Shown here: one piece after another, positions 7,996 to 61,559 of the stretch
How the letters are laid out: each line of letters begins with the position of its first letter
How positions within the stretch are numbered: the stretch's first letter is position 1
DNA from: Thermosediminibacter oceani DSM 16646
GTDB taxonomy: Bacteria; Bacillota; Thermosediminibacteria; Thermosediminibacterales; Thermosediminibacteraceae
NCBI RefSeq assembly: GCF_000144645.1
Contig: NC_014377.1
Span: forward strand, 310,001-374,000
Length of the DNA stretch: 64,000 nucleotides
Direction: 5' to 3'
Notes under the pieces: model-generated
Database searches by the model: none
Told to the model about the DNA's origin: nothing
Seen by the model: the letters and a program-made list of their open reading frames with translations, nothing else
Program-made: the position numbers and the translations under genes

Positions 7996-9851
7996 TGCTC
8001 GATTTGAGAAACAAAAAATGCCTGGTGGTCGGTGCGGGTGCCGTGGCCTACCGGAAGATCAGGTCCCTGCTGGAATGCGGTGCGGCTGTTACCGTAATAG
8101 CGACAAAGATAAATAAAGATATAAGGGAGCTGGGCGAAAAAGGCAGGATTGTAATCCTGGAAAGGTGCTACTCCGTTGGGGACCTGGAGGGTTTTTTCAT
8201 GGCCTTTGCGGCCTCCGATGACCCGGTGGTTAACCGGCAGGTGGCCGAAGAGGCGGCTCAGCGGGGGATACCTGTCAACGTTGCCGACGACCCCGGGCTC
8301 TCTTCCTTTATCGTGCCCTCGGTACTCAGGCGCGGCGATCTTGCGGTCGCAGTTTCATCGGGAGGCAAGAGCCCGCTGTTGTCAAAGGTTGTCAGGGAAT
8401 GGCTGGAAGGGATCGTGCCGGAAGAGGTCGACGACCTCATTCGGGATCTCGAAAGGGCCAGAGCCGAGGCCAAGGCGGCTAAACTGACACCTGAAGAGAA
8501 GATAAGGCTTTATTATAGCCTTATAAAAGGAAGGGGCTTATTTCGGGGAAAGGGGGATAAAATGAAGTCTTCGGAACTTTTTCAGAGGGCAAAAAAGGTG
8601 ATGCCCGGGGGTGTGAACAGTCCCGTTAGGGCGTTCGGAGCCGTGGGGGGAGACCCGGTTTTCATCAAAAGGGGATTCGGCAGCCGCGTATGGGATGAGG
8701 ACGGTAATGAATATATTGATTACGTGCTGTCCTGGGGGCCGCTGATACTGGGGCACTCCCATCCGGCGGTGGTAGAGGCCTTAAAAAGGCAGGCGGAGCT
8801 GGGCACCAGCTTCGGAGCCTGCACCGAACTGGAAGTGCTTTTGGCCGAAAAGATAAGGGAGGCCGTGCCTTCGATGGAAGTGGTCAGGATGGTCAACTCG
8901 GGCACGGAGGCCACCATGAGTGCCATTAGGCTGGCCAGGGGCTATACGGGGCGAAATCTGATCGTTAAATTTGCAGGATGCTATCATGGCCACTCGGACA
9001 GCCTGCTCATCAGGGCGGGCTCAGGCCTAATCACATACGGAATCCCGGATTCGGGCGGGGTCCCGGAAGATACAGCGAGGTTAACCCTTGTCGCCAGGTA
9101 TAACGACGTCGATATGCTGGAAGAAATATTCGAGGAAAAAGGCCCCGATATCGCGGCGGTCATCGTGGAGCCGGTGGCCGGCAACATGGGGGTGGTGCCT
9201 CCCGAGGAGGACTTTTTGAGAGCATTGAGGGAACTCCCCCGAAAGTACGGAGCGCTTCTAATCTTCGATGAGGTGATAACCGGCTTCAGGGTCTCATACT
9301 CGGGTGCCCAGGGCTATTACGGCATCGAGCCGGACCTGACCACGCTGGGCAAGATAATAGGCGGGGGCCTGCCAGTCGGAGTTTACGGCGGCAGGGAAGA
9401 CATAATGAGGTGCGTATCCCCGGACGGACCTGTGTACCAGGCCGGAACCCTTTCGGGTAATCCCCTGGCCATGGCCGCAGGTTTAACAACCCTGGAGGTG
9501 CTGTCGAAAAACCCGGGCCTTTACGATGAACTGGACCGCAGAGCGGAAAGGCTTTGTAGCGGTTTTAAAGAAGTTATGGAGGATGCCGGCATACCGGTAA
9601 CCGTAAACAGGGTGTGCAGCATGATGACGGTATTCTTCACCGGGGAAAAGGTGAGGAACTACGACACGGCCGTGAAATCGGATACACGGCTTTATGCGGT
9701 CTTCTTCCGGGAAATGCTAAAACAGGGCGTATACCTGCCCCCGGCCCAGTTCGAGGCCTTCTTCCTCTCGGCGGCCCATTCCGACGAAGATATAAAAAAG
9801 ACCATCGAAGCCGCCTGGAACGCTGCGAAAAACCTGAAGAAAAATTATTAA
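7977..9851 (+). CDS. sirC-hemL: Siroheme synthase N-terminal domain (SirC) in one reading frame with HemL
   Basis: A single uninterrupted 624-codon frame. Residues 1 to about 190 form an NAD-dependent precorrin-2 dehydrogenase of the SirC/Met8/CysG-N type: [17 protein letters not shown] (Rossmann loop), [15 protein letters not shown] and [11 protein letters not shown] are clear. At residue 196 a complete HemL begins ([17 protein letters not shown]) with no stop codon between. The start ATG 7977 follows AAAGGAAG and lies inside hemB. A strong ribosome site (AAAGGGGG, about 8550-8556) precedes the internal ATG 8562, so the cell may make a fusion, a separate HemL, or both. A one-base sequencing error at the junction is also possible, since a TAA lies out of frame at 8558-8560. 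Confidence 0.8.
8562..9851 (+). CDS. hemL: Glutamate-1-semialdehyde 2,1-aminomutase HemL (possible internal start)
   Basis: The 429-residue HemL portion is by itself full length. It is a PLP enzyme that converts glutamate-1-semialdehyde to 5-aminolevulinate. [13 protein letters not shown] starts the conserved core, [16 protein letters not shown] binds PLP phosphate, [10 protein letters not shown] holds the cofactor aspartate, and [14 protein letters not shown] contains the Schiff-base lysine. The ATG is 5-6 nt after a near-ideal Shine-Dalgarno run, supporting independent translation even though the frame is open back into sirC. It completes the ALA branch begun by hemA in the same operon. Confidence 0.85.
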
Positions 9852-21052: not shown

Positions 21053-21285
21053 TTGTGTAAAAAGGGAGTTTTAAAAAAGGGTTGAGCCACCCTCACCCCT
21101 CTGGTTAGAATTAAATTGACAACCCAAAAACCTAACTGGAGAGATGAGAAATAGCTCAATATAGTATTCTGAAATTTTTCATCACCTCTTTTTAAAAGAA
21201 GCTAAAGATGAAGGGATGATACAAGAAGGAATTGAAAATAAATTTAAGAAATAAGTAATGTGTAGTTTTTTAAAGGGTGAAAATT
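21053..21285. other. Intergenic remnant region
   Basis: No intact gene. A 29-codon open stretch (21165-21254, containing LFLKEAKDEGMIQEGIENKF) without a start looks like the 3' remnant of a lost gene. The remainder is AT-rich with no clear promoter or RNA structure. Confidence 0.35.
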
Positions 21286-21846
21286 ATGAGAAGAAAAGAT
21301 AGAGAAATGAACAGGGAATTTGGACTAAAAGTCATAGATAAATCCATATATGGAGTTCTTTCAATGGTGGATGAGGGTGAACCTTATGGTATTCCTCTTT
21401 CTATTGTAAGAGATGGGAATACATTATATTTTCATTCAGCCAAGGATGGAAGGAAGGTTAAAATACTGGAGAAAAACCCTAAAGTTAGTGTAGTTTTCGT
21501 TGGAGAAACAAAAATTCCAGAAATCTATTCCAATGAAGAATTGGATGAAATCGCAAAGGATGAATCAAAAGCAAATGCACTTATTAGTAAAGTTTTTACC
21601 ACTGAGTTTGAATCTGCTGTTGTAGTAGGAAAAGTAAAATTAGTAGAGGATGAAGATGAAAAGATTAAGGCACTGAAATTAATATGCGAAAAATATACCC
21701 CGACAAAAATGGCTTATTTTCCTATAGCAATTAAAGCAGGATTAAATAGGACTAATGTAGACTCTATAGAAATTGAAGAAATAACAGCCAAAAGAAAGAA
21801 ATTTGATGCAAATGGAGAAGAACTAAAGTGGGGAAGAACAGAATAA
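21286..21846 (+). CDS. Pyridoxamine-5'-phosphate-oxidase-like flavin-binding protein (NimA-like group)
   Basis: A 186-residue split-barrel protein. GVLSMVDEGEPYGIPLS, TLYFHSAKDGRKVKILEKNP and VSVVFVGETKI are the FMN-binding barrel strands of the PPOX/NimA group. TTEFESAVVVGKVKLVED and IKALKLICEKYTP follow as in 5-nitroimidazole-reductase-like members. ATG 21286 is preferred to GTG 21277 because AAAGGGTG lies 7 nt before it. Function could be flavin storage or nitro-compound reduction; heme or F420 ligands are less likely. The original downstream hairpin was duplicated by IS copy 1. Confidence 0.8.
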   Translation: MRRKDREMNREFGLKVIDKSIYGVLSMVDEGEPYGIPLSIVRDGNTLYFHSAKDGRKVKILEKNPKVSVVFVGETKIPEIYSNEELDEIAKDESKANALISKVFTTEFESAVVVGKVKLVEDEDEKIKALKLICEKYTPTKMAYFPIAIKAGLNRTNVDSIEIEEITAKRKKFDANGEELKWGRTE

Positions 21847-21860
21847 TGAAGGAAACAAAA

Positions 21861-21895
21861 AAGCGCAGGAGTAGTTTTTACTACTTCCTGCGCTT
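21861..21895. repeat. Left target-site duplication of IS copy 1 (35 bp, a whole hairpin)
   Basis: This 35-bp sequence (arms AAGCGCAGGAGTAG and CTACTTCCTGCGCTT around TTTTTA) is repeated exactly at 23491-23525 on the other side of the IS. It is a near-perfect stem-loop. The duplicated unit starts and ends at the base of the stem. Confidence 0.92.
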
Positions 21896-21896
21896 C

Positions 21897-21933
21897 AGAC
21901 TGTCGACAAAGTAACTGTCGACAGTCTTTTTTT
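21897..21933 (+). terminator. Terminator inside left end of IS copy 1
   Basis: AGACTGTCGACA (21897-21908) and TGTCGACAGTCT (21916-21927) pair perfectly over a 7-nt loop, followed by six T residues. It overlaps the terminal inverted repeat and would stop outside transcripts from running into the transposase. Copy 2 has the same structure at 59942-59978. Confidence 0.85.
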
Positions 21934-22007
21934 GCAAAAGCTAGTACAAAAATCATCAGCTTTTTAGTAAAATTAAAGAAGATACAAAAATATTGTGGGG
22001 CGATGAA

Positions 22008-23468
22008 ATGTTAACGAAGAAAAATAGAGAAATAATAAAGCAAGTAGAATTAGTAAGCATCGATAGCCTGGTGCCTCAAGACCATCTCCTTAGAGCTGTA
22101 GAAGAAAGCATCGACTTTAGTTTCATATATGAAGAAGTAAAAGACCTATATAGCGAAAATACAGGAAGACCTAGTATTGACCCGGTAGTGTTAATTAAGC
22201 TACTCATGCTCCAAGCATTGTATGGAATCCGCTCCATGCGCCAAACCATCAGAGAAGTAGAAGTCAATGTAGCTTACCGTTGGTTTTTAGGCTATGGATT
22301 ACAAGAAAAAATACCTCACTTTTCAACTTTTGGAAAAAACTATGAACGGCGGTTTAAGGAAAGTGATCTATTTGAAAAGATATTCGAGCGGGTGTTGATG
22401 GAAGCAATAGAATGCGGGTTTGTTAAAACAGATGCAGTATTTATCGATGCTACTCACATAAAAGCCAGTGCCAATAAGAATAAATATATCGAGAAAGTCG
22501 CTAAGCAACGGACTCAAAAATATAAGGAAGAACTTTTAAAAGAAATCAACGCCGAACGGGAAGCAAACGGTAAAAAGCCCTTTGAAGAAGAAGATGATGA
22601 TGACGATAACAACAAAGGAGAAAATAGCTCTAAAAAAGTCAGGGTAAGCACCACAGATCCTGAAAGTGGGATGTTTCAAAAAGGGGAAAAAGAGCGCTGC
22701 TTTGCCTACACAGCTTCTGTAGCCTGTGACCGGAACAACTTTGTCCTTGGTGTCAAAATAGCACCTGGAAATGTTCATGACAGCCAGGTATTCTCCGATT
22801 TATTTCAAGAAGTAAACGATAAATTTTCTAAAATAGAGGCGGTAGTGGTTGATGCAGGCTACAAAACCCCCGGGATATGCAGAGAAATCATTGAGGCAGG
22901 AGCGCTTCCCGTTATGCCCTACAAGAGGTCGATGACCAAAGATGGCTACTTTAAAAAACGCGAATACGTCTATGACGAATATTATGATTGTTACATATGC
23001 CCCAACAACCAAATATTAGAATACAGCACCACCAACCGGGCGGGATACCGGGAATATAGGAGCAACCCCCAAATATGCTGTAAATGTCCCATGCGCCTAC
23101 AGTGCACCAAAAGTAAAAATTACACAAAAATCATAACTCGGCATATATGGGAGCATTACATAGAAATAGCGGAAGATATAAGACACACCCAATGGGGTAA
23201 AGAACTATACAAAATGCGCGGCCAGACCATCGAGCGGGTATTTGCCGATGCGAAGGAAAAGCATGGCATGCGCTATACAAATCTACGAGGCTTGAGGAAA
23301 GTTGGACATTACCTCACGCTTCTTTTCGCATGCATGAATTTAAAAAAGCTGGCTTTATGGAAGAAAAGACGGGGAACGTTTCCGCCAACAGTCCCCGCTT
23401 TACATTCGTTTTTCTTAAAAATTTTCTTCGCCTTCAACAAAAAGCCGCTTTTAGGTTATGCATCCTAA
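22008..23468 (+). CDS. IS1182-family transposase (copy 1)
   Basis: A 486-residue DDE transposase, apparently intact. The N-terminal DUF772-type domain contains GRPSIDPVVLIKLLMLQALY and SMRQTIREVEVNVAYRWFLG. The catalytic core has FIDATHIKASANK, an acidic linker (EEEDDDDDNN), VVVDAGYKTPG and, near the C-terminus, MRGQTIERVFADAKEKHGM with the last acidic residue. A four-cysteine patch (ICCKCPMRLQC) precedes it. ATG 22008 follows GTGGGGCGATGAA; an upstream GTG at 21993 would add five residues. Confidence 0.93.
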   Translation: MLTKKNREIIKQVELVSIDSLVPQDHLLRAVEESIDFSFIYEEVKDLYSENTGRPSIDPVVLIKLLMLQALYGIRSMRQTIREVEVNVAYRWFLGYGLQEKIPHFSTFGKNYERRFKESDLFEKIFERVLMEAIECGFVKTDAVFIDATHIKASANKNKYIEKVAKQRTQKYKEELLKEINAEREANGKKPFEEEDDDDDNNKGENSSKKVRVSTTDPESGMFQKGEKERCFAYTASVACDRNNFVLGVKIAPGNVHDSQVFSDLFQEVNDKFSKIEAVVVDAGYKTPGICREIIEAGALPVMPYKRSMTKDGYFKKREYVYDEYYDCYICPNNQILEYSTTNRAGYREYRSNPQICCKCPMRLQCTKSKNYTKIITRHIWEHYIEIAEDIRHTQWGKELYKMRGQTIERVFADAKEKHGMRYTNLRGLRKVGHYLTLLFACMNLKKLALWKKRRGTFPPTVPALHSFFLKIFFAFNKKPLLGYAS

Positions 23469-23478
23469 AAGCGGCTTT
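23441..23478 (+). terminator. Hairpin at the right end of IS copy 1
   Basis: AAAGCCGCTTTTAGG (23441-23455) and CCTAAAAGCGGCTTT (23464-23478) form a perfect 15-bp stem over the transposase stop codon. The T-run is short, so it may act as a bidirectional terminator or protect the mRNA. The same structure is at 61486-61523 in copy 2. Confidence 0.7.
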
Positions 23479-23490
23479 GTCTACAAGCTG

Positions 23491-23525
23491 AAGCGCAGGA
23501 GTAGTTTTTACTACTTCCTGCGCTT
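23491..23525 (-). repeat. Right target-site duplication of IS copy 1; terminator hairpin of cooS
   Basis: Exact second copy of 21861-21895. On the minus strand it lies 14 nt after the cooS stop. In the uninterrupted ancestor, reading leftwards, the stem was followed by TTTTTTGTTT, so it probably was the cooS terminator. After insertion the T-run remains only at the left copy. Confidence 0.85.
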
Positions 23526-23538
23526 AAAGTTTTCCCGC

Positions 23539-25410
23539 TTACGATAACAGGGCTTTTCTTTTCTGCTCAATGATATCGGCCAGTTTTTCTGCCGCCGGTA
23601 CGATTTCACCCTCCACAATGACCTTCCCGCCGGTTAGCTGTTCCACATCCTCAGTTAAAACCTTGCTTACCAACTGGCTGCCGGTAACAAAGGGCGGGAT
23701 AGCAACGTGAATCGGTAACCCCAGGGCCAGCCCGAAGGAGGCGTCAGCCAGAGCTTGTTCTTCCAGCCACTGCGGGGCAGACAATACCAGTGGCAGCTCT
23801 GGGATGTCGATATCGAGGGCCTGGGCCAATTCAGCGGCTACTGTTTCCAGTCGCCCTATAGCCAAACACGGTCCAAAGTTCAGTACCGGCGGTATACCCA
23901 GCGTACGGCAAACCTCTTTTAAATTGTCGCCGGCCAGTTCCGCCGCTCCCGGAGAGGTCAAACCGACGTTTTCCAGACCACCGCTGGTGCAGCCGGCGGA
24001 CAGAACGATGATATCCCGCTTGATAAGCTCTTTGGTTAACTCTACGGTAAAAACATCATGTCCCTTGGCTGTAAGATTGGAACAGCCCACCACAGCGGCA
24101 ACTCCCCTGATTTTACCGCTGGCTATTAAGTCGATTAAAGGTTTAAAATTCCCGCCCAGAAAACTTTTCAATGATTTTTTACTAAGACCGGTTACTGCGT
24201 CGTCGCAGCCGTGGTCGGGTATATCCACCTGTACTTTGCCCCGGCGCCGGGTATAGCTTTCCAGAGCCGCGTGCATAATTTTTTCCGCTATGTCTGCAGC
24301 CTCGCTGCTATCGAACCGTATAAAGTCTGCGTTAGATTTTTTAGCCACGTCATCCAGGCAGATTTGCGCTACTTGAAATTGCTCGCAAATAGTCTCAATG
24401 CCCGGCACGGTGCAATTGAAGTCGGATACTACCAGATCGATACCGCCGGTGGCCAGCAGAGCCTCGCTGGTGAAGTTGTTGCCGACATGACCTGCAAAAG
24501 CTTTCCGGTAGTGCGCTCCGCGCTGCTGCATATCCTGGCCTACGCAGGTGCAGCCCACTATCTTGAAGCCTTTGGCCCCATTCTTGCTCGCCAGCGCGTC
24601 TGCTTCGGGGGTAACTATTTTATCCTGCAGTACTCCGATGAGGGAATGCTGGTGGCCGGTAACCATAATATTGATATAATCCGGGTCCACCACGGAAAAA
24701 CCTACTTTAGCGGTAGTAATTTGGGGTTCACCCAACATAATGTCATTTAAATAATTAGTTAAAGTCAAGCCGTATAAACCCGTAGCAATACCCAGTTTTA
24801 AAGCGTGCAGCAGCATATCCACCGGGTCGCTGGATAGGTTGGTGCTGGTTTTGACGATGGCGTCGAAGACTTCGGACTTAGCACCGCCGGGCAGTATGTT
24901 CAGTTCCTTCCAACGCTGGAATCTTGACCGGTAGGCCAGTTTTTCCACCAGGGTCATTTGCTGTTCCCGGGGCAGGTAAAGATCTTCCAGCACCCGCTCC
25001 GCTATTTTGACGGCTTGCTGCGCCGGATCGGTTTCCTCTATTTCAAACATCTCGGCTAGTTCACGCAGTGTTTCCGGTCCTTTAATGGTTAACCCGTTTT
25101 TCCCCTGGCCAAGAGCGCGCAAATTTTTTGCGGTGTTTTCCAATATGTGCAGGTAGCAGGCCGCTCCGGCAGCCACTGACCGTAAAAAATTCCGGGCGAC
25201 GATGGTGTCGGCGGTGGCCCCGCAGACCCCTTTAGGAGACTGGGGGGTGATCCGGCAGGGTCCGTTGGTGCACAGCCGGCAGCAAACCCCTTGCATGCCA
25301 AAGCCGCACTTCACGGCTTGACTTGAAACGCGGTTAAAGGATGTCTCTACTTCAAATTTTGAACGCATAAAATCGATTAATTTTTTATCCGCAGAAGTAC
25401 ACATTTCCAT
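23539..25410 (-). CDS. cooS: Divergent CooS-type (Ni-CODH scaffold) Fe-S protein
   Basis: A 623-residue protein of the anaerobic CO dehydrogenase/hybrid-cluster superfamily. The D/B-cluster motif is intact (C35, C43, C44, C47, C52 in CGFGMQGVCCRLCTNGPC). Later cluster cysteines also appear: GCTCVGQD, DFNCTVPG, VVGCSN, SAGCTSGG and NFGPCLAIGR. Residues catalytic in characterised CODHs are changed: the histidine-rich proton path after AAGAA reads CYLHIL (the H93 equivalent is Y86), the usual SEKAVA lysine is Q552 (EEQALADA), and the usual GHNP-like loop is GHQHSL. Numbering is by eye alignment. There is no cooF, nickel-insertion, ACS or hydrogenase gene nearby, only an Rrf2 regulator upstream. 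It may not oxidise CO. Confidence 0.85.
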   Translation of the reverse strand: MEMCTSADKKLIDFMRSKFEVETSFNRVSSQAVKCGFGMQGVCCRLCTNGPCRITPQSPKGVCGATADTIVARNFLRSVAAGAACYLHILENTAKNLRALGQGKNGLTIKGPETLRELAEMFEIEETDPAQQAVKIAERVLEDLYLPREQQMTLVEKLAYRSRFQRWKELNILPGGAKSEVFDAIVKTSTNLSSDPVDMLLHALKLGIATGLYGLTLTNYLNDIMLGEPQITTAKVGFSVVDPDYINIMVTGHQHSLIGVLQDKIVTPEADALASKNGAKGFKIVGCTCVGQDMQQRGAHYRKAFAGHVGNNFTSEALLATGGIDLVVSDFNCTVPGIETICEQFQVAQICLDDVAKKSNADFIRFDSSEAADIAEKIMHAALESYTRRRGKVQVDIPDHGCDDAVTGLSKKSLKSFLGGNFKPLIDLIASGKIRGVAAVVGCSNLTAKGHDVFTVELTKELIKRDIIVLSAGCTSGGLENVGLTSPGAAELAGDNLKEVCRTLGIPPVLNFGPCLAIGRLETVAAELAQALDIDIPELPLVLSAPQWLEEQALADASFGLALGLPIHVAIPPFVTGSQLVSKVLTEDVEQLTGGKVIVEGEIVPAAEKLADIIEQKRKALLS

Positions 25411-25464
25411 TTTTTTAACCTCCCGGCAGTAAATATTAGTTTAGTAACTATCATTATTAGTAAT

Positions 25465-25486
25465 TATACTAGACTAAAATAGTAAT
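25465..25486 (-). promoter_or_regulatory. Rrf2-type operator A in the cooS promoter region
   Basis: On the minus strand the site reads ATTACTATTTTAGTCTAGTA plus TA. It shares the core ACTATTTNAGTCTAGTATA with site B (25502-25527) and lies within a TATAAT-containing stretch, so binding would occlude the cooS promoter. Confidence 0.6.
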
Positions 25487-25501
25487 TATTACTAGTAATT
25501 A

Positions 25502-25527
25502 TATACTAGACTCAAATAGTATACTTT
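25502..25527 (-). promoter_or_regulatory. Rrf2-type operator B in the cooS promoter region
   Basis: TATACTAGACTCAAATAGTA then TACTTT on the plus strand. A nearly identical site (about 20 of 22 positions) lies upstream of the rrf2 gene at 26091-26112, in inverted orientation relative to its own gene. The rest of 25411-25661 is AT-rich, with one further dyad (ACTATAC 25597-25603 / GTATAGT 25611-25617). Confidence 0.65.
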
Positions 25528-25661
25528 AGGGTGCAACTGTGCGTCAATTTTCTTATCTACTATTTTGGGTATTAGCATTTCTAAGATGCTGCTAAAACTA
25601 TACTCAAGATGTATAGTATTTTATAAAAAATTTTGTAACTAATTACGTACAATATTGCATT

Positions 25662-26069
25662 TTAATTTTTACTTAATATCTCAAAATTATATTCCTCCAG
25701 CTTATCATTGATGGTTTGCTGGATGGAAAAAAGCGCTTTATGAATGGAACATTTGGCAGTGCTTCTTTTATTGCACTCCTCGGGGGCAATCAGACACCTG
25801 TTGATGTAAACCGGGCCCTCTACTGCTTCCACTACATCCCGCATGGTTATATCCCGGGGCATTTTGGCCAATGCGTAACCGCCGCCTACTCCACGGTAAG
25901 ATTTTACAATGCCGGCCTGGGTCAGCAAGCGGAGTATTTTTAACATAAAACGCATGGGGATGTGCTCTTGTTCTGCTATAACCCTAGCTTCCACCACTTC
26001 CCCCGGGGGGAGCTTAGATAAATGCAATACTGCCCGAAATGCATAATCCGTTGCTTGATTGAGCTTCAC
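25662..26069 (-). CDS. Rrf2-family Fe-S-type transcriptional regulator
   Basis: A 135-residue winged-helix regulator. MKLNQATDYAFRAVLHLS, HIPMRFMLKILRLLTQAGIV and SYRGVGGGYALAK are typical of Rrf2/IscR/NsrR. Cysteines C92, C99 and C107 have the three-Cys arrangement that holds a Fe-S cluster in IscR and NsrR; spacing is closer to NsrR-like proteins. GTG 26069 is chosen because TTGGAGGAATTA lies just upstream; a TTG at 26087 is part of that ribosome site. It sits upstream of cooS in the same direction and shares an operator sequence with it, so it probably controls both. Confidence 0.88.
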   Translation of the reverse strand: MKLNQATDYAFRAVLHLSKLPPGEVVEARVIAEQEHIPMRFMLKILRLLTQAGIVKSYRGVGGGYALAKMPRDITMRDVVEAVEGPVYINRCLIAPEECNKRSTAKCSIHKALFSIQQTINDKLEEYNFEILSKN

Positions 26070-26090
26070 TGTATGTAATTCCTCCAAGCT

Positions 26091-26112
26091 AAAGTATACT
26101 ATATGAGTCTAT
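26091..26112 (-). promoter_or_regulatory. Rrf2-type operator upstream of the rrf2 gene
   Basis: AAAGTATACTATATGAGTCT plus AT on the plus strand. It overlaps a TATACT (minus strand) that may be the -10 element and matches cooS operator B at about 20 of 22 positions, indicating autoregulation. Confidence 0.62.
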
Positions 26113-26279
26113 TTTAAGATAATACTATGATATTTTAAGCCGGATGTCAACCCCCGGAAGGAATTGTTTTCATATGCTTCTAGGGTTTTTACAGCGAAGA
26201 AACTGGATTACAAAAATTTTATAAAAATATGAAGGATAGTTACAAAAAGTGTAGAATATTTTATTTAAGAGGTGAGGTT

Positions 26280-27122
26280 ATGCCCGGAAGTCTAGAAAAA
26301 ATCGCAGCGATACTAAACGGCCTAAAACCGTCGGAAAAAAAGATAGCGCAGTATATTCTGGAAAACCCCCAGGAGATCTCGGACCTGCCTATCGCAGAGC
26401 TGGCAAAGAGGTGCGGTACCAGCGAGGCGAGTGTTGTCAGGTTCTGCAGGACTTTAGGCTATAAAGGCTACCAGGACTTGAAGATAAAGATTTCGGCGGA
26501 TTTAGCTATAAAAACTAAAAAGATCCAGGGTTTGGTCAGCGTGGACGACGATGTGGACGCCATAATAACAAAGGTATCGCGCAACAACATGCTGGCTGTA
26601 GAAAATACGATGGACATCCTGGACCGGAATGAAGTCCGAAAGGCGGCGGAGGTACTCTTACGGGCAAAGAAGATTGATTTTTACGGCGTAGGGGCCTCGG
26701 GCATAGTAGCCCAGGACGCAATGCACAAATTCATGAGGATAAACAAGGCCTGCACCGCGTATACCGATACCCACATGCAGCTTACTTCGGCGGCCAACCT
26801 CTCGCCGGAGGATGTGGCGGTGGGGATATCGTACTCCGGACAGACCGTGGATACCGTCGATGCCCTAAAGCTTGCCAAAAATGCCGGGGCCACCACCATC
26901 TGCATAACCAAGTTCGGCCATTCACCGATTACAAAGGTTTCCGACATAAAACTTTTCGTCACTTCCTCGGAGGCGCTTTTCCGGAGTGGTGCCATGGCTT
27001 CCCGCATGGCGCAGCTTAACGTCATCGACATCCTTTTTACCATCGTAGCCTGCAGGAAGTACGACGATATAATCAATTACCTGGAAAATACCAGTGAAGC
27101 GGTTGCTTCAAGAAAATATTAA
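26280..27122 (+). CDS. RpiR/MurR-family transcriptional regulator
   Basis: A 280-residue regulator with an N-terminal HTH_6 domain (IAELAKRCGTSEASVVRFCR, LGYKGYQDLKIKI) and a C-terminal SIS sugar-phosphate domain (YGVGASGIVAQDAMHKFMR, VGISYSGQTVDTVDALKLAK). ATG 26280 follows AGAGGTGAGGTT; the frame is open further upstream (26229) but without a ribosome site. It heads the amino-sugar operon. SIS-type regulators such as MurR bind MurNAc-6-phosphate, and the operon encodes MurQ, so that ligand or GlcNAc-6-phosphate is a reasonable guess. Confidence 0.9.
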   Translation: MPGSLEKIAAILNGLKPSEKKIAQYILENPQEISDLPIAELAKRCGTSEASVVRFCRTLGYKGYQDLKIKISADLAIKTKKIQGLVSVDDDVDAIITKVSRNNMLAVENTMDILDRNEVRKAAEVLLRAKKIDFYGVGASGIVAQDAMHKFMRINKACTAYTDTHMQLTSAANLSPEDVAVGISYSGQTVDTVDALKLAKNAGATTICITKFGHSPITKVSDIKLFVTSSEALFRSGAMASRMAQLNVIDILFTIVACRKYDDIINYLENTSEAVASRKY

Positions 27123-27154
27123 TTTTTTTTGGAGTATGATGAAGTAAAATTACA

Positions 27155-27172
27155 GTATTACTAAAACAATAC
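27155..27172 (+). promoter_or_regulatory. Candidate operator upstream of the PTS genes
   Basis: GTATT (27155-27159) and AATAC (27168-27172) form an 18-bp interrupted palindrome between the RpiR gene and the IIB gene. It is the only dyad there, but it is short and AT-rich, so this is tentative. Confidence 0.3.
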
Positions 27173-27202
27173 GAAATTATACTTACGAAAGGGGGGAGAC
27201 TT

Positions 27203-27511
27203 TTGAAAATACTTCTCGTATGTTCAGGAGGCATGAGCACAAGCATTGTCTTAAAGGCCGTCGAAAAGAAAGCGGCAGAGCTAAAAGAAGACGTTTACGT
27301 TGAAGCGGCATCCACCACCCAATTTGAAGAAAGGGTAAAGGATTTTGACGTAGTATTGATAGCTCCACAGGTAAGACACAGGAAGCAGTTCTTCGAAGAA
27401 ATAGCTTCAAAGCATGGGATTCCCACAGGACTTATCGAGCCTCAAGCTTACGGTCCCTTTGGCGGGGAAAAAATTCTCCGCCAGGCAAAAAAACTTCTCG
27501 AGGAGGTATGA
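27203..27511 (+). CDS. PTS lactose/cellobiose-type EIIB component
   Basis: A 102-residue cytoplasmic phosphocarrier. The phospho-cysteine is C7 in LLVCSGGMSTS, the conserved P-loop of Lac-family IIB, and the rest follows the family (VVLIAPQVRHRKQFFEE). The start is TTG 27203 after GGGGGGAGAC. It accepts phosphate from the IIA encoded at 28810 and passes it to the sugar during uptake through IIC. Confidence 0.93.
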   Translation: MKILLVCSGGMSTSIVLKAVEKKAAELKEDVYVEAASTTQFEERVKDFDVVLIAPQVRHRKQFFEEIASKHGIPTGLIEPQAYGPFGGEKILRQAKKLLEEV

Positions 27512-27514
27512 ACG

Positions 27515-28765
27515 GTGGAATTCTTTTTAAAGTGGGTTGAGGAAAAACTGATGCCTCCCATGGCGAAACTAGCAGAACAGAGGCATTTGCGGGCCGTCAG
27601 GGACGGTATAGTGGCCACTCTGCCCCTTATAATCGTGGGCAGCTTCTTCCTAATAGTCGCTTCTCCCCCGATACCGGCACTGGCTGAAAAAATTCAGCCC
27701 TACGCTTCCCAGATATTAATACCTTTCAGGCTCAGCGTGGGACTGATGGCACTCTACGCAGCCCACGGCATAGGGTACAGCCTTGCCAAGTCCTATAACC
27801 TGGACCCCGTAGCAGGTGGTCTCCTGGCGCTGGCGTCTTTTATAATGATTACCCTGCCTCAGAACGTGGAAAAAATAGGTTTCGTCCTGCCCATGGGCGG
27901 ACTGGGTGGTGCGGGCCTTTTTGCAGCCATCATCATGGCGTTTTTTGCCGTAGAGGTTTTGAGGTTCCTGACCGTCAGAAAAATAACCATAAAAATGCCC
28001 GAGGGCGTTCCCGAGTCGGTAGCCAGGTCCTTTGAGGCATTAATACCCGCGGCCGCAATCATGGTTATCATATATATTGTGAGGGTTATGCTTAACATTA
28101 ATATTCAGGAACTGATAATGAATCTCTTCAAACCGCTGGTAACCGCCGGAGATTCGTTAATCGGCGTGCTCGTTCCGGTCATCCTGATCACCCTACTGTG
28201 GTCGGCAGGCATCCACGGAGTTTCTGTGGTGGGCAGCATTGCGAGGCCCATTTGGATGGCGCTTCTGGATGAAAACACGCAGGCGGCGGCAGCCGGAGCT
28301 AAAATCCTGCCCCACATAGCTCCGGAGCCTTTCTTCCAGTGGTTCATCTGGATAGGAGGATCGGGTGCAACGCTGAGCCTTGTACTATTAATGCTTACTT
28401 CGAAGTCGAGGTACCTCAAAAATCTCGGGAAGGCGTCGCTCCTCCCCGGCGTATGCAACATCAACGAGCCCGTAATCTTCGGCGCTCCGATAATGCTGAA
28501 TCCAATACTTGCAATTCCGTTTATTATAGGACCTGTAATTACAGCAGTAATATCCTACATAGCTATGGTTTTTAACCTGGTAGGCAGGCCCTACGTGCTG
28601 GCGCCCTGGACCCTGCCCGCTCCTATAGGTGCTTACCTCGCCACCGGAGGAGACTGGAGGGCGGTGGTGCTGGTGCTGGTCAATATTGCTTTAACAACTA
28701 TAATTTACTATCCGTTCTTTAAGGTATACGAGAGAAAGATGATGGAAGAAGAGACCGAAAGCTGA
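27515..28765 (+). CDS. PTS lactose/cellobiose-type EIIC permease
   Basis: A 416-residue membrane permease, shorter than fused forms because B and C are separate. VRDGIVATLPLIIVGSFFLI, IHGVSVVGSIARPIW and NINEPVIFGAPIMLNPILAI are hallmark segments of the Lac/cellobiose/chitobiose IIC family. GTG 27515 lies 3 nt after the IIB stop behind GAGGAGGT. Chitobiose (GlcNAc2) or a GlcNAc-MurNAc type disaccharide is the likely substrate, judged from the downstream enzymes rather than from the permease itself. Confidence 0.92.
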   Translation: MEFFLKWVEEKLMPPMAKLAEQRHLRAVRDGIVATLPLIIVGSFFLIVASPPIPALAEKIQPYASQILIPFRLSVGLMALYAAHGIGYSLAKSYNLDPVAGGLLALASFIMITLPQNVEKIGFVLPMGGLGGAGLFAAIIMAFFAVEVLRFLTVRKITIKMPEGVPESVARSFEALIPAAAIMVIIYIVRVMLNINIQELIMNLFKPLVTAGDSLIGVLVPVILITLLWSAGIHGVSVVGSIARPIWMALLDENTQAAAAGAKILPHIAPEPFFQWFIWIGGSGATLSLVLLMLTSKSRYLKNLGKASLLPGVCNINEPVIFGAPIMLNPILAIPFIIGPVITAVISYIAMVFNLVGRPYVLAPWTLPAPIGAYLATGGDWRAVVLVLVNIALTTIIYYPFFKVYERKMMEEETES

Positions 28766-28770
28766 TCAAA

Positions 28771-28793
28771 AAAGCCGGGTTTTACCCGGCTTT
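28771..28793 (+). other. Intra-operon hairpin between IIC and IIA
   Basis: AAAGCCGGGT (28771-28780), a TTT loop and ACCCGGCTTT (28784-28793) form a perfect 10-bp stem right after the IIC stop. No T-run follows, so partial termination or an mRNA processing/stability element is more likely than full termination. Confidence 0.65.
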
Positions 28794-28809
28794 CAAAAAT
28801 GGAGGTCGT

Positions 28810-29178
28810 ATGATGGTAGACGAAAACTCGATATTTGAGATGATAGCTTACGGCGGAAATGCACGGGCTAAAGCCTATGAAGCTGCTGCCCGGGCTCGAA
28901 AAGGCGATTTTGAACTGGCGGAGAAATTGCTAAAGGAAGCCGACGAAGAGATGTTAAAGGCGCACCACGTCCAGACGAGGCTGATCCACGAGGAAGTTCA
29001 GGGAAAAAAACACGAGGTTTCGGTGCTCCTGGTGCACGCCCAGGATCACCTCATGACGGCGATGGCGGAAAGAAGCCTCATCGAAAATATGATAGATCTT
29101 TTCCGCCGGGTGCGGGAACTGGAAGTTGAGGTAAGCGCGCTCAAGGGGTGTCTTGGTAATGAAAAAATTGATAGTTAA
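28810..29178 (+). CDS. PTS lactose/cellobiose-type EIIA component
   Basis: A 122-residue helical phosphocarrier that passes phosphate from HPr to IIB. His76 in LLVHAQDHLMTA is the phosphorylation site. ARARKGDFELAEKLLKEADE is the conserved amphipathic second helix. GGAGGTCGT precedes tandem ATGs; either the first or second may be used. The 3' end overlaps chbG by about 20 nt. Confidence 0.92.
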   Translation: MMVDENSIFEMIAYGGNARAKAYEAAARARKGDFELAEKLLKEADEEMLKAHHVQTRLIHEEVQGKKHEVSVLLVHAQDHLMTAMAERSLIENMIDLFRRVRELEVEVSALKGCLGNEKIDS

Positions 29179-29929
29179 TGCAGACGATTTCGGATTGACG
29201 CCGGGAATAAATCGGGCTGTTAAACAGGGCGTTATCGAAGGGATAATAACCGATACAACCCTCATGGTGAATATGCCCGCTGCCCGGGAAGCGATGGATA
29301 TAGCCATGGAATGCTTCCCCGACCGGGTGGGGATTCACCTGAACCTGACCTGCGGCAGGCCGGTGCTGGACCCGGCGGAGGTCCCGAGCCTGGTGGATAA
29401 ATCGGGCCGTTTTTACCGGAGAAGAGCTGCTCTGATGGAAAGGGCAACCCTTCGAGACATCGAGAAAGAATTGCGAGCCCAGGTGGATAAATTTTTGAGA
29501 TCCGGGCTAAAGCCGAGCCACCTGGACTGTCATCATCACCTGCACCTTCACCCGATGGTAGCAGAAATCGTGGCTGAATTAGCTCTGGAACTTAATGTAC
29601 CGGTACGGGCCGTTGATTCTCAAACTAGAGCGTTTTTTAAAAGCCGCGGTGTTATAACGCCCGATCAATTTTCCGTGGATTTTTACGGGGAGGGAGCATC
29701 TTATCAAAATCTGGTTTCCATTTTAGACTCCTACAGCTACGGGGTGATGGAAATCATGACCCATCCCGGCTACTGTGATCAAGAGCTTTTGGAGATAAGC
29801 ACTTATACCCATTTTCGCGAAAAAGAACTGGAGATACTGACGAACCCCTTTTTACGCGGTGTTCTTGAGGAAAAGGATATTGTGCTGGTGAGTTTTAACG
29901 ACCTGAAAACCGAGAAGGGGAGCCTATGA
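29159..29929 (+). CDS. chbG: Chito-disaccharide deacetylase ChbG/YdjC family
   Basis: A 256-residue YdjC-fold deacetylase. LIVNADDFGLTPGINRAV holds the metal aspartates, VGIHLNLTCGRPVL the metal histidine, SHLDCHHHLHLHP further ligands, and IMTHPGYCD the C-terminal catalytic motif. In enterobacteria ChbG removes one acetyl group from chitobiose-6-phosphate so that the GH4 hydrolase can cut it, and here a GH4 gene ends the same operon. ATG 29159 is preferred; TTG 29153 is nearer the AAGGGG site. It is coupled to the kinase gene by an ATGA overlap. Confidence 0.9.
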   Translation: MKKLIVNADDFGLTPGINRAVKQGVIEGIITDTTLMVNMPAAREAMDIAMECFPDRVGIHLNLTCGRPVLDPAEVPSLVDKSGRFYRRRAALMERATLRDIEKELRAQVDKFLRSGLKPSHLDCHHHLHLHPMVAEIVAELALELNVPVRAVDSQTRAFFKSRGVITPDQFSVDFYGEGASYQNLVSILDSYSYGVMEIMTHPGYCDQELLEISTYTHFREKELEILTNPFLRGVLEEKDIVLVSFNDLKTEKGSL

Positions 29930-30882
29930 GTTACATAATAGGTGTCGATGCAGGGGGAAGTAAAATCGAAGTACTAGCCCTTGACCTGGAAAGGCACAGT
30001 GCAAATACTCTCATTATTGAAAGGTCCGGCAATGCCATGTCGGCGGGAGAAGATAAAGCATTATACAACATAAAAGAAGCGGTGGAGAAGGTGTCGGCGC
30101 CGGTCGAAAAGACGGGCTCCCGATGCCTGGGGATATACGTGGGAGCCGCAGGAGCGGGCAGCAAGGAGATCAGGCGGAAAATCCGCGAGGTCTTGACGGG
30201 TCTTGCGCTGACGGACGCCGTATTCGTAGACAGCGATTACAGGATAGCCCTGGCAGGTGCAGCTGGAAGGCCGTACGGCGTCGTGGTGATAGCTGGTACC
30301 GGAAGCGTGGTATACGGCGTAAACGAAGCCGGTAGTGAAGTGATCCTGGGAGGCTGGGGCCATTTGATCGGAGATGAAGGCAGCGGATACTATATAGGCC
30401 GAAGGGCCATTAGGGAAGCGGTTAAATTCTATGAAGGGCGCGGAGGCTCGAAAAGGATTTACGAAGAGGTCCTGGCGCATTTTTCCGTAAAAGATCTAAC
30501 GGAAATAAAGCCTATTCTGTATTCGGGAGGTTTTTCGAAAGATATCATTGCAGGCCTCACAGTCAGGGTGAGCAAACTCTGCGATGAAGGCGAAAGAATT
30601 GCTCGCCAGATCCTTGAAGAGGCGGGCACGGCTCTTTCAGAGCTTGTAAGCTGTGCTCTGAAAAGGTTCGTGTATATTTCCGATGTTATTGTATCCGGCA
30701 GCATCCTGTTAAAGGAAAAGCTGGTATACGATACTTTCGCTTTTGAGCTAAAGCGCACGTGTCCAAAGGTAAAAATACGCCGCCCCAGATATAGGGCTAC
30801 TGCGGGGGCTCTTATCCTCCTTGCCGGGGAATTGGGTATAGAGTTGGATTCGAATTTGCTGCCGGGGGCGGAAACATTATAG
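29926..30882 (+). CDS. N-acetylglucosamine kinase-like protein (BadF/BcrA ATPase family)
   Basis: A 318-residue sugar kinase of the ASKHA fold. IIGVDAGGSKIEVLALD is the phosphate-1 loop, VVIAGTGSVVYGVNEAG the phosphate-2 loop and GGWGHLIGDEGSGYYIGR the family's sugar/adenosine region, all as in eukaryote-like NAGK/MurK proteins. It would phosphorylate free GlcNAc (and perhaps MurNAc) released by the GH4 enzyme. The start overlaps the chbG stop (ATGA). Confidence 0.88.
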   Translation: MSYIIGVDAGGSKIEVLALDLERHSANTLIIERSGNAMSAGEDKALYNIKEAVEKVSAPVEKTGSRCLGIYVGAAGAGSKEIRRKIREVLTGLALTDAVFVDSDYRIALAGAAGRPYGVVVIAGTGSVVYGVNEAGSEVILGGWGHLIGDEGSGYYIGRRAIREAVKFYEGRGGSKRIYEEVLAHFSVKDLTEIKPILYSGGFSKDIIAGLTVRVSKLCDEGERIARQILEEAGTALSELVSCALKRFVYISDVIVSGSILLKEKLVYDTFAFELKRTCPKVKIRRPRYRATAGALILLAGELGIELDSNLLPGAETL

Positions 30883-30893
30883 GAGTGATGCTG

Positions 30894-32057
30894 TTGGAAA
30901 GGCTCTACGCACTTTATAAAAAGAAGAAGAAAAAGGTAATCGGCCTGATGTCGGGGACTTCAGCCGATGGTATCGATGCTGCGCTTGTGGAAATTGAAGG
31001 ATACGGCCCGGAAACCAGGGCAGAACTCCTGGTCTTCTGCAATTTCCCCTATGATGAGCCGACGAGGCGGGAAATATTCCATCTGTTTGATGTGAGCCGT
31101 TCAACGGTGGACCTGGTATGCAGGATGAATTTTAAGCTCGGGAGACTCTTCGGCAATGCTGCGATACGGCTGTGCGAGCTTGCGGGCGTGGATATAAGTG
31201 ATGTTGATCTGATAGGGTCCCACGGGCAGACCGTCTATCACATTCCCGGAGAAGCTACGCTGCAGATAGGAGAACCCTGCGTTATCGCCGAGATTACCGG
31301 CCGGACGGTGGTCGCCGATTTCAGGGTCCGCGATGTGGCTGCCGGAGGTCATGGGGCACCGCTGGTGCCGTACGCCGAATACCTTCTTTACAGGTCCGAT
31401 GAAGTCAACCGGGCTCTGCTGAATATAGGAGGAATCGCCAATATTACGGTGCTGCCGAAGAGCTGCTCGGTGGAAGATATAACGGCCTTTGACACAGGTC
31501 CCGGTAATATGGTGATAGACGAAATAGTGCTGCGAGGGACTGGAGGAAGTATGAAGTTCGATAAAGACGGGGCTGTAGCTTCGAAAGGAAAGGTAGACGA
31601 AAGACTGATTGAATTCCTCAAAGCACATCCGTACCTAAAACAGCGGCCCCCAAAAACGGCAGGTAGGGAGATCTTCGGTGGTGGTTTTGTAGAAGAGATT
31701 ATTAGGAAATCTTTGGACCTGAGGATTGGATTCGAAGACCTGGTAGCTACCGTTACTTACTTTACCGCATATTCAATAGCTAGAGCTTGCAGGGATTTCC
31801 TTATGCCAAACCATCGAATAGATGAGATTTTAATAAGCGGCGGCGGGGCGTATAATAAAACGCTGGTCGATATGATTCGCAAAGAATTGAAAGGCGTTGA
31901 GATTCGTACCTTTGAAGATATCGGCCTAAATTCGGACGCCAAGGAAGCTGTGGCCTTTGCAGTACTGGCCAACGAGACGATCGGCGGGGTCTGCAACAAC
32001 GTACCCGGTGCGACGGGAGCAGGAAAAAGGGTTATACTCGGGAAAATAATTATATGA
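30894..32057 (+). CDS. anmK: Anhydro-N-acetylmuramic acid kinase AnmK
   Basis: A 387-residue kinase that opens the 1,6-anhydro bond of anhMurNAc and phosphorylates O6, giving MurNAc-6-phosphate. GLMSGTSADGIDAALVEIE, IGSHGQTVYHIPG, LQIGEPCVIAE, VADFRVRDVAAGGHGAPLVP and AFDTGPGNMVID are all intact. The start is uncertain: TTG 30894 is optimally spaced from AGGAGTGAT, ATG 30888 is close to it, and an Arg/Lys-rich N-terminus precedes the conserved core either way. Directly followed by murQ, its pathway partner. Confidence 0.94.
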   Translation: MERLYALYKKKKKKVIGLMSGTSADGIDAALVEIEGYGPETRAELLVFCNFPYDEPTRREIFHLFDVSRSTVDLVCRMNFKLGRLFGNAAIRLCELAGVDISDVDLIGSHGQTVYHIPGEATLQIGEPCVIAEITGRTVVADFRVRDVAAGGHGAPLVPYAEYLLYRSDEVNRALLNIGGIANITVLPKSCSVEDITAFDTGPGNMVIDEIVLRGTGGSMKFDKDGAVASKGKVDERLIEFLKAHPYLKQRPPKTAGREIFGGGFVEEIIRKSLDLRIGFEDLVATVTYFTAYSIARACRDFLMPNHRIDEILISGGGAYNKTLVDMIRKELKGVEIRTFEDIGLNSDAKEAVAFAVLANETIGGVCNNVPGATGAGKRVILGKIII

Positions 32058-32079
32058 CCTTTAAAAAGGGGATGGTGCG

Positions 32080-33006
32080 ATGGAACTCACAAAACTCATA
32101 ACAGAACAGAGAAATCCTTACACGGAAGACATCGACATACTGGATACCGTGAGCATGCTGAAAAAAATGAATGACGAGGACAAAAAAGTGGCCTTCGCTG
32201 TGGAAAAGGAGATCCCCAGGATAGCTACGGCCGTTGACCTTATAACCAATAGGCTGAAGAACGGTGGCCGGCTTATTTATATCGGGGCGGGCACCAGCGG
32301 CAGGTTGGGAATTTTGGACGCTTCCGAGTGCCCCCCGACTTTCGGCGTGGACCCGGAACTCGTGCAGGGTGTGATAGCGGGAGGTGACTCAGCCATAAAA
32401 AAAGCCGTTGAGGGAGCTGAAGACGACGAATATATGGGGAGAAAGGACCTTCAGGACAGGAGACTGTCCGACAGAGATGTGGTTGCGGGTCTGACGGCCA
32501 GCGGCAGGACACCCTACGTCATAGGTGGGTTGAAATATGCCAGAGAAGTAGGAGCGCTTACGATAGGGATATGCTGCAATCCCGAGAGCCCGTTGAGAGA
32601 TTTTACCGACATACTTATCGCCCCGGTTGTAGGGCCGGAAGTTATATTGGGTTCCACCCGGTTAAAAGCCGGTACAGCCCAGAAGATGGTGCTCAACATG
32701 ATTTCCACGGGTGTGATGATAAGGCTCGGCAAGGTTTACAGTAACCTTATGGTAGATTTACAGGCGACCAACAAAAAACTGCAGCAGAGGGCCAGGCGGA
32801 TTGTTAAGTTGGCCACGGGCGTCGATGACGAAAGAATAGACGCCGTGCTGAGTAAAACGGAATACAATGTGAAACTTTCGATTTTCATGATACTCTCCGG
32901 AATGGACGGGGAAAAGGCAAAAAAAATCCTGACATTTCACGGCGGGAATATAAGAAAAGCCCTGGAATCAATAGAAGGTGTTAAAGGGGTTGAGTCATGT
33001 GGTTAA
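32080..33006 (+). CDS. murQ: N-acetylmuramic acid 6-phosphate etherase MurQ
   Basis: A 308-residue SIS-domain lyase that removes the D-lactyl ether from MurNAc-6-phosphate, yielding GlcNAc-6-phosphate. [20 protein letters not shown] and [16 protein letters not shown] are diagnostic, along with AVEGAEDD (catalytic glutamate region) and [16 protein letters not shown]. Its product feeds nagA/nagB at 12675-14628. The GGGGATGGTGCG ribosome site precedes ATG 32080; the 3' end overlaps the GH4 gene by 8 nt. Confidence 0.96.
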
Positions 33007-34309
33007 AAAATTGAAGATTGCTGTCATAGGCGGCGGGTCCAGCTACACGCCCGAGCTCATAGAGGGTTTTATAAAAAGAGCTCCGGAACTTCCCGTAAGT
33101 GAAATTTACCTCGTGGATGTGGAACAGGGCAGGGAAAAACTGGAGATAGTGGGCAACCTCGCGAAGCGTATGCTTGACAAAGCAGGCCTTAATATCAGTG
33201 TCCATCTGACTCTGGATAGAAGGGAGGCCATTTCCAACGCCGACTTTGTAATAACCCAGTTCAGGGTGGGGGGCATAGACGCCCGCATCAGGGATGAGAA
33301 AATCCCTCTAAAGTACGGTGTCATCGGCCAGGAGACTACCGGGCCCGGCGGTTTTGCCAAAGCGTTAAGGACGATCCCCGTGATATTGGATATATGTAGG
33401 GATATAGAGGAGCTGGCTCCTGATGCATGGCTGATAAATTTCACAAATCCGTCGGGGATTATTACGGAAACGGTAATAAAACACACCGGCGTTAAGGTAC
33501 TGGGGCTGTGCAATGTGCCCGTCAATATGGTAAACTACGTGGCAAAAGCCTACGGAGTGGAAATGGATAGAGTTTATATTCAATTTGCGGGTCTAAACCA
33601 CCTGGTGTGGGGATTGCGGGTATATCTCGACGGTGAAGATATAACACAAAAATTGATAGAGCAGCTTGCTTCCGACGAGAATATGACTATGAAGAACATC
33701 CCGGGTATGCAGTGGGATAAAGATTTGCTAAAATCCCTCGGGGTGCTTCCGTGTCCCTATCACCGGTACTATTACATGAAAGACACTATGCTGGAGGAAG
33801 AAAAAAGAAAAGCTACCCATGAGGGTACTCGCGGCGAAGTGGTCAAAAAAGTCGAACGGGAGCTTTTTGAACTTTATAAGGATCCCAAGCTGGATGAAAA
33901 GCCACCGCAGCTCGAGAAAAGAGGAGGGGCCCTCTACTCCTACACTGCCTGCAACTTGATTAGTTCCATAGTAAACGACAAAAGAGATATTCAAGTAGTA
34001 AATGTAAAAAACAGCGGCGCGATTTTAGACTTACCCGAGGATGCGGTCGTTGAGACAAATTGCGTTATAGACAAAAACGGAGCCCATTCGTTGAGTGTAG
34101 GTCGCCTGCCGGCCAAGATAAGAGGGCTGATACAGGTGGTGAAGGCCTATGAAGAGTTAACCATAGAAGCAGGGGTCAACGGAGATTATAATGCAGCTCT
34201 TCAAGCCTTAACCATCCATCCTCTGGTACCGTCTGCGGGGATTGCGAAAAAAATATTGGATGATATCCTTGCCGAAAATAGGGAATATTTACCGCAGTTT
34301 TTTAAATAA
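32999..34309 (+). CDS. Glycoside hydrolase family 4, 6-phospho-beta-glucosidase (ChbF-like)
   Basis: A 436-residue NAD- and Mn-dependent glycosidase. [19 protein letters not shown] is the NAD-binding start, [15 protein letters not shown] and [11 protein letters not shown] the family core, and LCNVPVNM contains the metal-binding cysteine. GTG 32999 overlaps murQ and follows AAAGGGG; the protein then starts [13 protein letters not shown]. With ChbG it would cut the deacetylated disaccharide phosphate. It is the last gene of the operon. Confidence 0.92.
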
Positions 34310-59929: not shown

Positions 59930-59940
59930 ATAGGCTGCTA
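59917..59940. repeat. Left target-site duplication of IS copy 2 (24 bp, metK hairpin)
   Basis: A 24-bp sequence (arms AGCAGCCT and AGGCTGCT around TTAAAT) repeated exactly at 61536-61559. It includes the metK stop codon, so the gene stayed intact after insertion. Confidence 0.92.
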
Positions 59941-61535: not shown

Positions 61536-61559
61536 GAGCAGCCTTTAAATAGGCTGCTA
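61536..61559 (+). repeat. Right target-site duplication of IS copy 2; displaced metK terminator
   Basis: Exact copy of 59917-59940. Here the stem is followed by AATTTTTGCGC, the original T-rich tail of the metK terminator, so this half kept the terminator function but is now about 1.6 kb from metK. Confidence 0.88.

Follow-up and report, generated by a model that had tools for sequence, protein, structure and literature searches.

The question raised by this locus is whether a CooS protein that lacks the acid-base residues of carbon monoxide dehydrogenases (CODHs) is nonetheless a CO dehydrogenase and, if it is not, what else it might do. The gene lies in a 64-kb window, positions 310,001-374,000 of the complete 2,280,035-base genome of Thermosediminibacter oceani, and coordinates given below are those of the window unless stated to be of the genome. 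The original prediction was of a CooS with altered catalytic residues that resembled CooS-V of Carboxydothermus and, given an NsrR-like regulator, could have a role against reactive nitrogen or redox stress.

The CooS protein and its active site

The cooS gene (23539..25410, minus strand) starts at an ATG that follows a GGGAGG ribosome-binding site and encodes a protein of 623 aa. The product scores 811 bits against the NCBIfam profile CO_DH_cata (cut-off 478) and 512 bits against Pfam Prismane, and its solved relatives are, best first, 6t7j, which we take to be a Thermococcus CODH, 7b7q (CooS-V) and 6elq, presumably CODH-IV. Matches to solved CODHs run over the full length, which leaves the fold beyond doubt. 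Residues were assigned from an alignment of the protein with the solved CODHs 6t7j, 6elq, 6vwy and 7b7q and about 100 homologues; CODH-II is itself outside this alignment, and its numbering was transferred via homologues.

Tyr86 (codon 25153..25155, minus strand, as are all codons given here) stands where CODH-II has its proton-relay His, His93, and Gln552 (23755..23757) where it has the catalytic Lys, Lys563. Both residues had been predicted from an alignment by eye, and no His or Lys is regained at either catalytic position in the fuller alignment with the CODH-II positions marked. The active site does therefore differ from that of a standard CODH, and with the His93/Lys563 pair replaced by Tyr86/Gln552 we reject an identity as a canonical Ni,Fe-CODH (clades A, E and F) for the protein. 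The GHNP/GHVP loop of canonical enzymes reads GHQH, as had also been seen, and its His253 (24652..24654) is the C-cluster His ligand.

The cluster ligands are otherwise complete. The B-cluster cysteines (44, 47, 52 and 63) are present as predicted, and so are Cys35 and Cys43 of the D cluster, which is of type II (C35-x7-C43C44) with one N-terminal Cys only. For the C cluster the prediction allowed most of the cysteines, which proved too cautious, as all five are there (289, 333, 443, 474 and 515) together with His253. Two positions matter particularly for the comparisons made below: Cys289 (24544..24546) is the equivalent of Cys295, which is Glu in CooS-V, and Glu550 (23761..23763), at a position with Ser or His in canonical CODHs, is the equivalent of the hybrid-cluster ligand that is Glu556 in CooS-V and Glu494 in the hybrid cluster protein (HCP).

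A canonical CODH with both His and Lys is encoded elsewhere in the genome (genome positions 793,225-795,078), inside the Wood-Ljungdahl cluster and followed by CooC. Upstream of it, in the extract from 786000 to 805000 (L143), are genes for two near-identical proteins of 586-590 aa with a [2Fe-2S]-like N-terminus (109-1881 and 3428-5188 of the extract), a duplicated protein that is possibly a corrinoid reactivator.

Membership of clade C

Clade C of the Ni-CODHs was defined by Inoue et al in 2019 (PMC6344411) as having a full C-cluster with the His replaced by Tyr and the Lys by Gln, and the replacement as a hallmark of the clade is thus already published. The same authors found that groups C-1 and C-2 associate with CooF, FNOR and an NsrR/IscR-like regulator. 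By its sequence the T. oceani protein is a member of this clade, and of group C-2 since its D cluster is of type II and its N-terminus has a single Cys. Known examples from the two groups are cooS1 of Clostridium autoethanogenum and C. ljungdahlii and CD0174 of C. difficile (Techtmann 2012; Inoue 2019, PMC6344411), with which it has in common the Tyr/Gln acid-base positions, the full set of C-cluster ligands, the type II D cluster and the COG1959 (Rrf2) neighbour already known for both groups. The T. oceani locus differs in being without cooF and FNOR, in having an insertion sequence directly downstream, in its lateral acquisition and in that a predicted operator has now been identified. What is new here is that operator, the dedicated regulon, the transfer of the cassette without its partners, the existence of carriers without CooC, and the mixed ligand set.

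Scanning 84,980 species, each through one genome, gave 222 relatives. The best 80 of these, which are 62-88% identical to the T. oceani protein and come from Clostridium, Clostridioides, Desulfotomaculia, Moorella, Heliobacteria, Halanaerobiales, Fusobacteriota and others, all have the Tyr, the Gln and the equivalent of Glu550. Matches in the phylum with more than 60% identity that cover the sites have the same Tyr/Gln pattern, and Tyr86, Glu550 and Gln552 are invariant in the 81 clade C rows of the alignment. We do not regard the pattern as due to chance, and a frameshift or sequencing artefact is rejected because it is invariant in about 80 species. In a maximum likelihood tree (quick method, midpoint root) clade C has 100% SH-aLRT support and a long stem, and includes the C. 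ljungdahlii and C. carboxidivorans CooS proteins. The T. oceani protein is placed next to those of Desulfallaceae (95/98), apart from the CooS-V type represented by 7b7q and from the canonical CODHs.

A further group of CooS proteins (41-44% identity; our loci L164-L174 and L092) has Tyr at the His position, keeps Cys295, has Glu two residues before the Lys position and keeps the Lys. This group, intermediate between clade C and CooS-V, is probably a subgroup of clade D.

Comparison with CooS-V and the hybrid cluster protein

The likeness to CooS-V that had been proposed is real in part. CooS-V of C. hydrogenoformans (clade D-1; PDB 7b7q; PMC9311411), the type with a Ni-free Fe-S-O hybrid cluster, resembles the T. 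oceani protein in its CODH fold, in the Tyr at His93, in the Glu two residues before the Lys/Gln position and in the Asn before the second Cys ligand. About 11 sites that are invariant in the 81 clade C rows (Y86, H88, N191, T210, Q292, F305, G307, N332, F512, G519 and E550) have the same residue in CooS-V-type proteins and are fixed differently in 19 canonical rows. They include the equivalents of two residues of importance in CooS-V, namely Glu556 (E550), an Fe ligand of the hybrid cluster, and Asn337 (N332), which is near the cluster water and acts at the hybrid cluster (PMC9311411). Clade C, as judged from these alignments, combines the Cys set of a CODH with residues typical of a hybrid-cluster enzyme, though the residues common to clade C and CooS-V may go back to a common ancestor of clades C and D and need not mean that the chemistry is the same.

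The claim that the two are similarly altered does not extend to the key ligands. CooS-V has Glu for Cys295 and keeps the Lys, whereas the T. oceani protein keeps the Cys and has lost the Lys; the D cluster of CooS-V is of type III, and CooS-V-type proteins are only about 36-39% identical to ours. Assignment to the CooS-V type (clade D-1) is therefore rejected, on the Cys289 kept where CooS-V has Glu. The HCP (hydroxylamine reductase) family is in the same superfamily, PF03063, and also has the equivalent of Glu550, but its Glu268 position is Cys289 in the T. oceani protein, and on this and a score of 31 bits against a cut-off of 361 an HCP identity is rejected as well.

These comparisons bear on the function originally proposed, that of a hydroxylamine or NO reductase of the CooS-V/HCP type under an NO-sensing NsrR, which we now think improbable. 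The CooS-V-like surroundings, Glu550 among them, speak for it, as does the slow reduction of hydroxylamine by CODHs and by CooS-V (PMC9311411), but in CooS-V this activity is very low (kcat/KM 20 per M per s) and NO reduction was not detected (PMC9311411). Against it are the retained Cys295 equivalent, which is Glu in both CooS-V and HCP, and the loss of the Lys that CooS-V keeps. Moreover the T. oceani genome already has both alternatives: an HCP-like gene at about genome position 1,640,600, and a separate CooS-V-type gene (genome positions 749,670-751,469; 7569-9482 of extract L142) whose product is 39% identical to the clade C protein, has Glu at Cys295 and keeps the Lys. This last gene is common to relatives in the genus, family and order.

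The Rrf2 regulator and its predicted operator

The gene upstream of cooS and in the same direction (25662..26069, minus strand) is by profile searches of the rrf2 type and encodes 135 aa from a GTG; the frame as listed starts at a TTG at 26087 (141 aa), which is inside the ribosome-binding site. In the numbering of the 141-aa frame the product has Cys98, Cys105, Cys113 and His116, a C-x6-C-x7-C-x2-H signature of the IscR-type C-C-CxxH form. The signature of the IscR [2Fe-2S] site is C-x5-C-x5-C-x2-H. Like IscR, NsrR and RirA the protein is a member of the Rrf2 family with three cysteines, and it differs from them in Cys spacing, in having its own candidate operator and a one-locus regulon, and in scoring below every subfamily cut-off (57 against 182 bits for NsrR, 65 against 208 for IscR). 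A co-directional rrf2 gene is found upstream of cooS in 51 of 82 loci, our own included, and in these 51 the three cysteines are invariant and the CxxH His is present in 50. In Desulforamulus putei the clade C cooS has a truncated rrf2 remnant upstream (1292-1453 of our locus L013), with an operator-like site still there.

From the rrf2-cooS intergenic regions we derived a predicted operator consensus, AAAsTATACy-N5-rGTATAsTTT. In T. oceani there are three such sites. The first, O1 (AAAGTATACTATTTGAGTCTAGTAT, 25503..25527, minus strand), lies between rrf2 and cooS and overlaps the -10 box of a candidate sigma-70-type cooS promoter, TTGACG-18-TATACT (25518..25547, minus strand). A second palindrome of the same kind, with one mismatch, is in the same intergenic region (25595..25619, plus strand). 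O2 (AAAGTATACTATATGAGTCTATTTT, 26091..26115, plus strand) is in front of rrf2, just downstream of a candidate sigma-70-type promoter for that gene, TTGACA-17-TAGTAT (26122..26150, minus strand), and is thus a candidate for autoregulation; both promoters are consensus matches only.

A score of at least 17/20 for the operator was obtained in the intergenic region at 47 of 51 loci with rrf2, at 7 of 31 without it and in 1 of 820 Markov shuffles, a contrast with the shuffles that is somewhat optimistic as the consensus was read by eye from the same intergenic sequences. In an independent check the same score was reached by 46 of 51 rrf2 promoters, as against 11 of 1000 stretches taken at random from these loci, and some of those 11 are probably real sites. 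The promoters of cooS and rrf2 have a 21-base pattern in common that did not turn up once in 100 shuffles. The pattern fitted to the locus, with up to two mismatches allowed, matches the 2.28-Mb genome at three places, all at rrf2-cooS, and for this reason we take the Rrf2 protein to be a probable autorepressor that serves this one locus. The operator was not found in the literature searched, regulon databases being outside that search.

The description of the regulator as NsrR-like was not upheld. It is below the NsrR cut-off, has an IscR-type C-C-CxxH, and its operator is unlike the NsrR palindrome gATGyAT-N5-ATrCATc (PMC1274295). An NsrR regulon is rejected on the difference in operator and on there being only three sites in the genome, and the case for an NsrR-controlled reductase is weakened accordingly. 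What can be said for NO as the signal is that Fe-S Rrf2 proteins can respond to it.

Origin of the rrf2-cooS cassette

The association of regulator and cooS is as in the rrf2-cooS-cooF-FNOR clusters described by Geelhoed (2016, PMC4703632; "b/r" regulator), except that cooF and FNOR are missing in T. oceani. Homology at the DNA level to Desulfoscipio geothermicus (23529..26172, minus strand; 86-87% in rrf2 and cooS) covers these two genes and nothing else, ending 10 bp after the cooS stop and before cooF. The protein is 87-88% identical to the Desulfotruncus and Desulfoscipio CooS proteins, and a clade C gene was found in none of 21 other genomes examined from the genus, family or order of T. 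oceani. We conclude that the cassette was acquired horizontally from Desulfallaceae-like bacteria, without cooF-FNOR. As predicted, there are no CODH accessory or nickel-insertion genes nearby; homologues of CooC, CooF and FNOR are found only elsewhere in the genome, those of CooF and FNOR being distant (34-38% identity). Downstream of some clade C cooS genes (8887-10659 of L012; also L070, L073 and L074) CooF and FNOR appear to be fused in one frame.

Downstream of cooS is an insertion sequence (21896..23490, plus strand; DDE transposase 21993-23468), of which the genome has about 30 full-length copies. It sits inside a palindrome and is flanked by 35-bp exact direct repeats (21861-21895 and 23491-23525). 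One could suppose that it removed cooF-FNOR. However it splits a palindrome that was already directly 3' of cooS, so this is rejected; since it lies between two palindrome copies already directly following cooS, the loss of cooF-FNOR predates it. The transposase is of the DDE_Tnp_1_6/DUF772 type, another copy is in the window at about 59937-61539, and the element may target terminators.

The cassette might also be a recent relic, with cooS cut off from its CooF/FNOR partners, flanked by an insertion sequence and heading for loss. The absence of a clade C gene from those 21 genomes, the presence of cooF and FNOR directly downstream of cooS in the nearest relatives of the locus and the insertion sequence immediately 3' would fit, but the 623-aa frame is intact with every conserved position kept, the candidate promoter and all predicted operators are intact, and solitary rrf2-cooS without cooF is a common and stable architecture, found at 25 of 82 loci. 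We consider decay very unlikely.

CooC and nickel insertion

No CooC-like protein was found at E 1e-8 in 20 of 54 other clade C genomes, among them Clostridium beijerinckii, C. puniceum, C. akagii, C. tagluense and Propionigenium maris. CooC is clear in 33 (E 1e-52 or better), with a weak partial match in the remaining one. The survey includes some draft genomes, yet gaps would hardly account for 20 absences. Among the genomes without CooC a solitary cooS is found more often (12 of 20 as against 9 of 34; Fisher p 0.02, the species not being independent). Canonical nickel insertion is therefore not needed by clade C, and in carriers such as C. beijerinckii the clade C CooS is found without the usual nickel-insertion ATPase. 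T. oceani itself has CooC in trans, after the canonical CODH. Some recombinant CODHs assemble without CooC, and for that reason its absence is not proof of absence of nickel.

Function of clade C CooS

With regard to published data, one enzyme assigned to clade C has been purified, and only one, the CooS of T. kivui. With methyl viologen it oxidised CO at 13.9 U/mg, and the organism required it to grow on CO (PMC8683389); its Km for CO is 5 uM. It is from a CO-adapted strain and early-branching, and how representative it is has been questioned (PMC13056359). A 25-base 5' sequence of the T. kivui gene, from a published primer, had no match among 397 genomes. In C. autoethanogenum knock-out of cooS1 changed growth on CO and on H2/CO2, whereas in an acsA knock-out cooS1 and cooS2 did not oxidise CO, and CO was produced in that mutant (PMC4895105). 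In C. difficile the clade C operon responds strongly to iron supply (PMC6311696), and O2 induction of clade C operons in two clostridia is reported as a citation in PMC6344411.

Taking all of this together, the reading that we prefer, and whose chances we put at about even, is that rrf2-cooS is a horizontally acquired, self-regulated cassette and that clade C CooS is a low-potential reductase induced by redox or Fe-S stress. It is the most likely single reading, and starts from what the sequences establish: clade C membership, the invariant Tyr and Gln, full C-cluster ligands, CooS-V-like surroundings, predicted operators common to both promoters and the absence of cooF-FNOR. It is favoured by the invariance of Tyr86, Glu550 and Gln552 with the 11 or so CooS-V-like sites, and by the 20 of 54 genomes without a CooC-like protein. 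The link to iron and redox comes from the C. difficile iron response and from the O2 induction as cited, and that the protein is no CO oxidiser in vivo from the inactivity of cooS1 and cooS2 in the acsA knock-out. Of the stress role first proposed, redox, Fe-S or O2 stress is still plausible, but a specific role against reactive nitrogen is unsupported.

Next in order is a true but slow Ni,Fe CO dehydrogenase/CO2 reductase with Tyr and Gln in place of His and Lys, serving small-scale CO disposal or production, or ferredoxin balance; we regard this as possible, if rather doubtful. A Ni,Fe cluster is possible since all six C-cluster ligands are kept, Cys289 included, and CooC is available in trans, and the low CO oxidation by T. 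kivui CooS with its need for growth on CO and the cooS1 knock-out phenotypes speak for a slow CODH and against a reductase; the CO produced in the acsA mutant also fits a slow CODH. Set against a slow CODH are the invariant loss of the acid-base pair, the many carriers without CooC, the failure of cooS1 and cooS2 to oxidise CO, and the absence of a CO-sensing regulator and C1 genes next to the T. oceani cooS, while the T. kivui data are for a CO-adapted strain and an early-branching sequence.

For the stress-linked reductase we envisage the following. The Rrf2 protein would carry an Fe-S cluster on Cys98, Cys105, Cys113 and His116, and would repress rrf2 and cooS by binding the palindromes over or next to their promoters, with repression changing when the cluster is lost or damaged by iron limitation, O2 or another oxidant. 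CooS, presumably a homodimer, would take electrons from ferredoxin via the D and B clusters and use them to reduce a small molecule by two electrons at low potential; the C-site cluster at which this happens would be an altered one, held by the Cys ligands and Glu550, with Tyr86 replacing the acid-base His. It would not be a housekeeping CO dehydrogenase, with at most slow CO/CO2 chemistry.

We suggest more tentatively that clade C CooS is no CO dehydrogenase but a separate kind of metalloenzyme: independent of CooC, with a Ni-free or Ni-optional cluster on five Cys, His and Glu550, and reducing by two electrons a small molecule related to stress. In many genomes its control would fall to an Fe-S Rrf2 protein, a dedicated repressor that has an operator of its own and a very small regulon. 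This matters as clade C, among the main clades of CODHs, lacks an agreed function, and yet its members are annotated as CO dehydrogenases and counted as such when CO metabolism is surveyed. The pairing of a specific operator with its regulator and the list of carriers without CooC provide handles for testing the function, and the mixed ligand set, with Cys295 kept, the hybrid-cluster Glu present and the Lys lost, is a precise target for mutation and metal analysis.

Neighbouring genes

Window positions 26229-34309 hold an amino-sugar operon with a MurR/RpiR-type regulator, PTS-type components, a ChbG-like deacetylase, a sugar kinase, an AnmK-like kinase, a MurQ-like etherase and a 6-phospho-glycosidase, the names other than that of the regulator being given by eye. 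On the other side, beyond the insertion sequence and convergent with cooS, is a gene (21277-21846) for a flavoprotein like Nim or pyridoxamine oxidase, which scores below the NimA-F cut-off.
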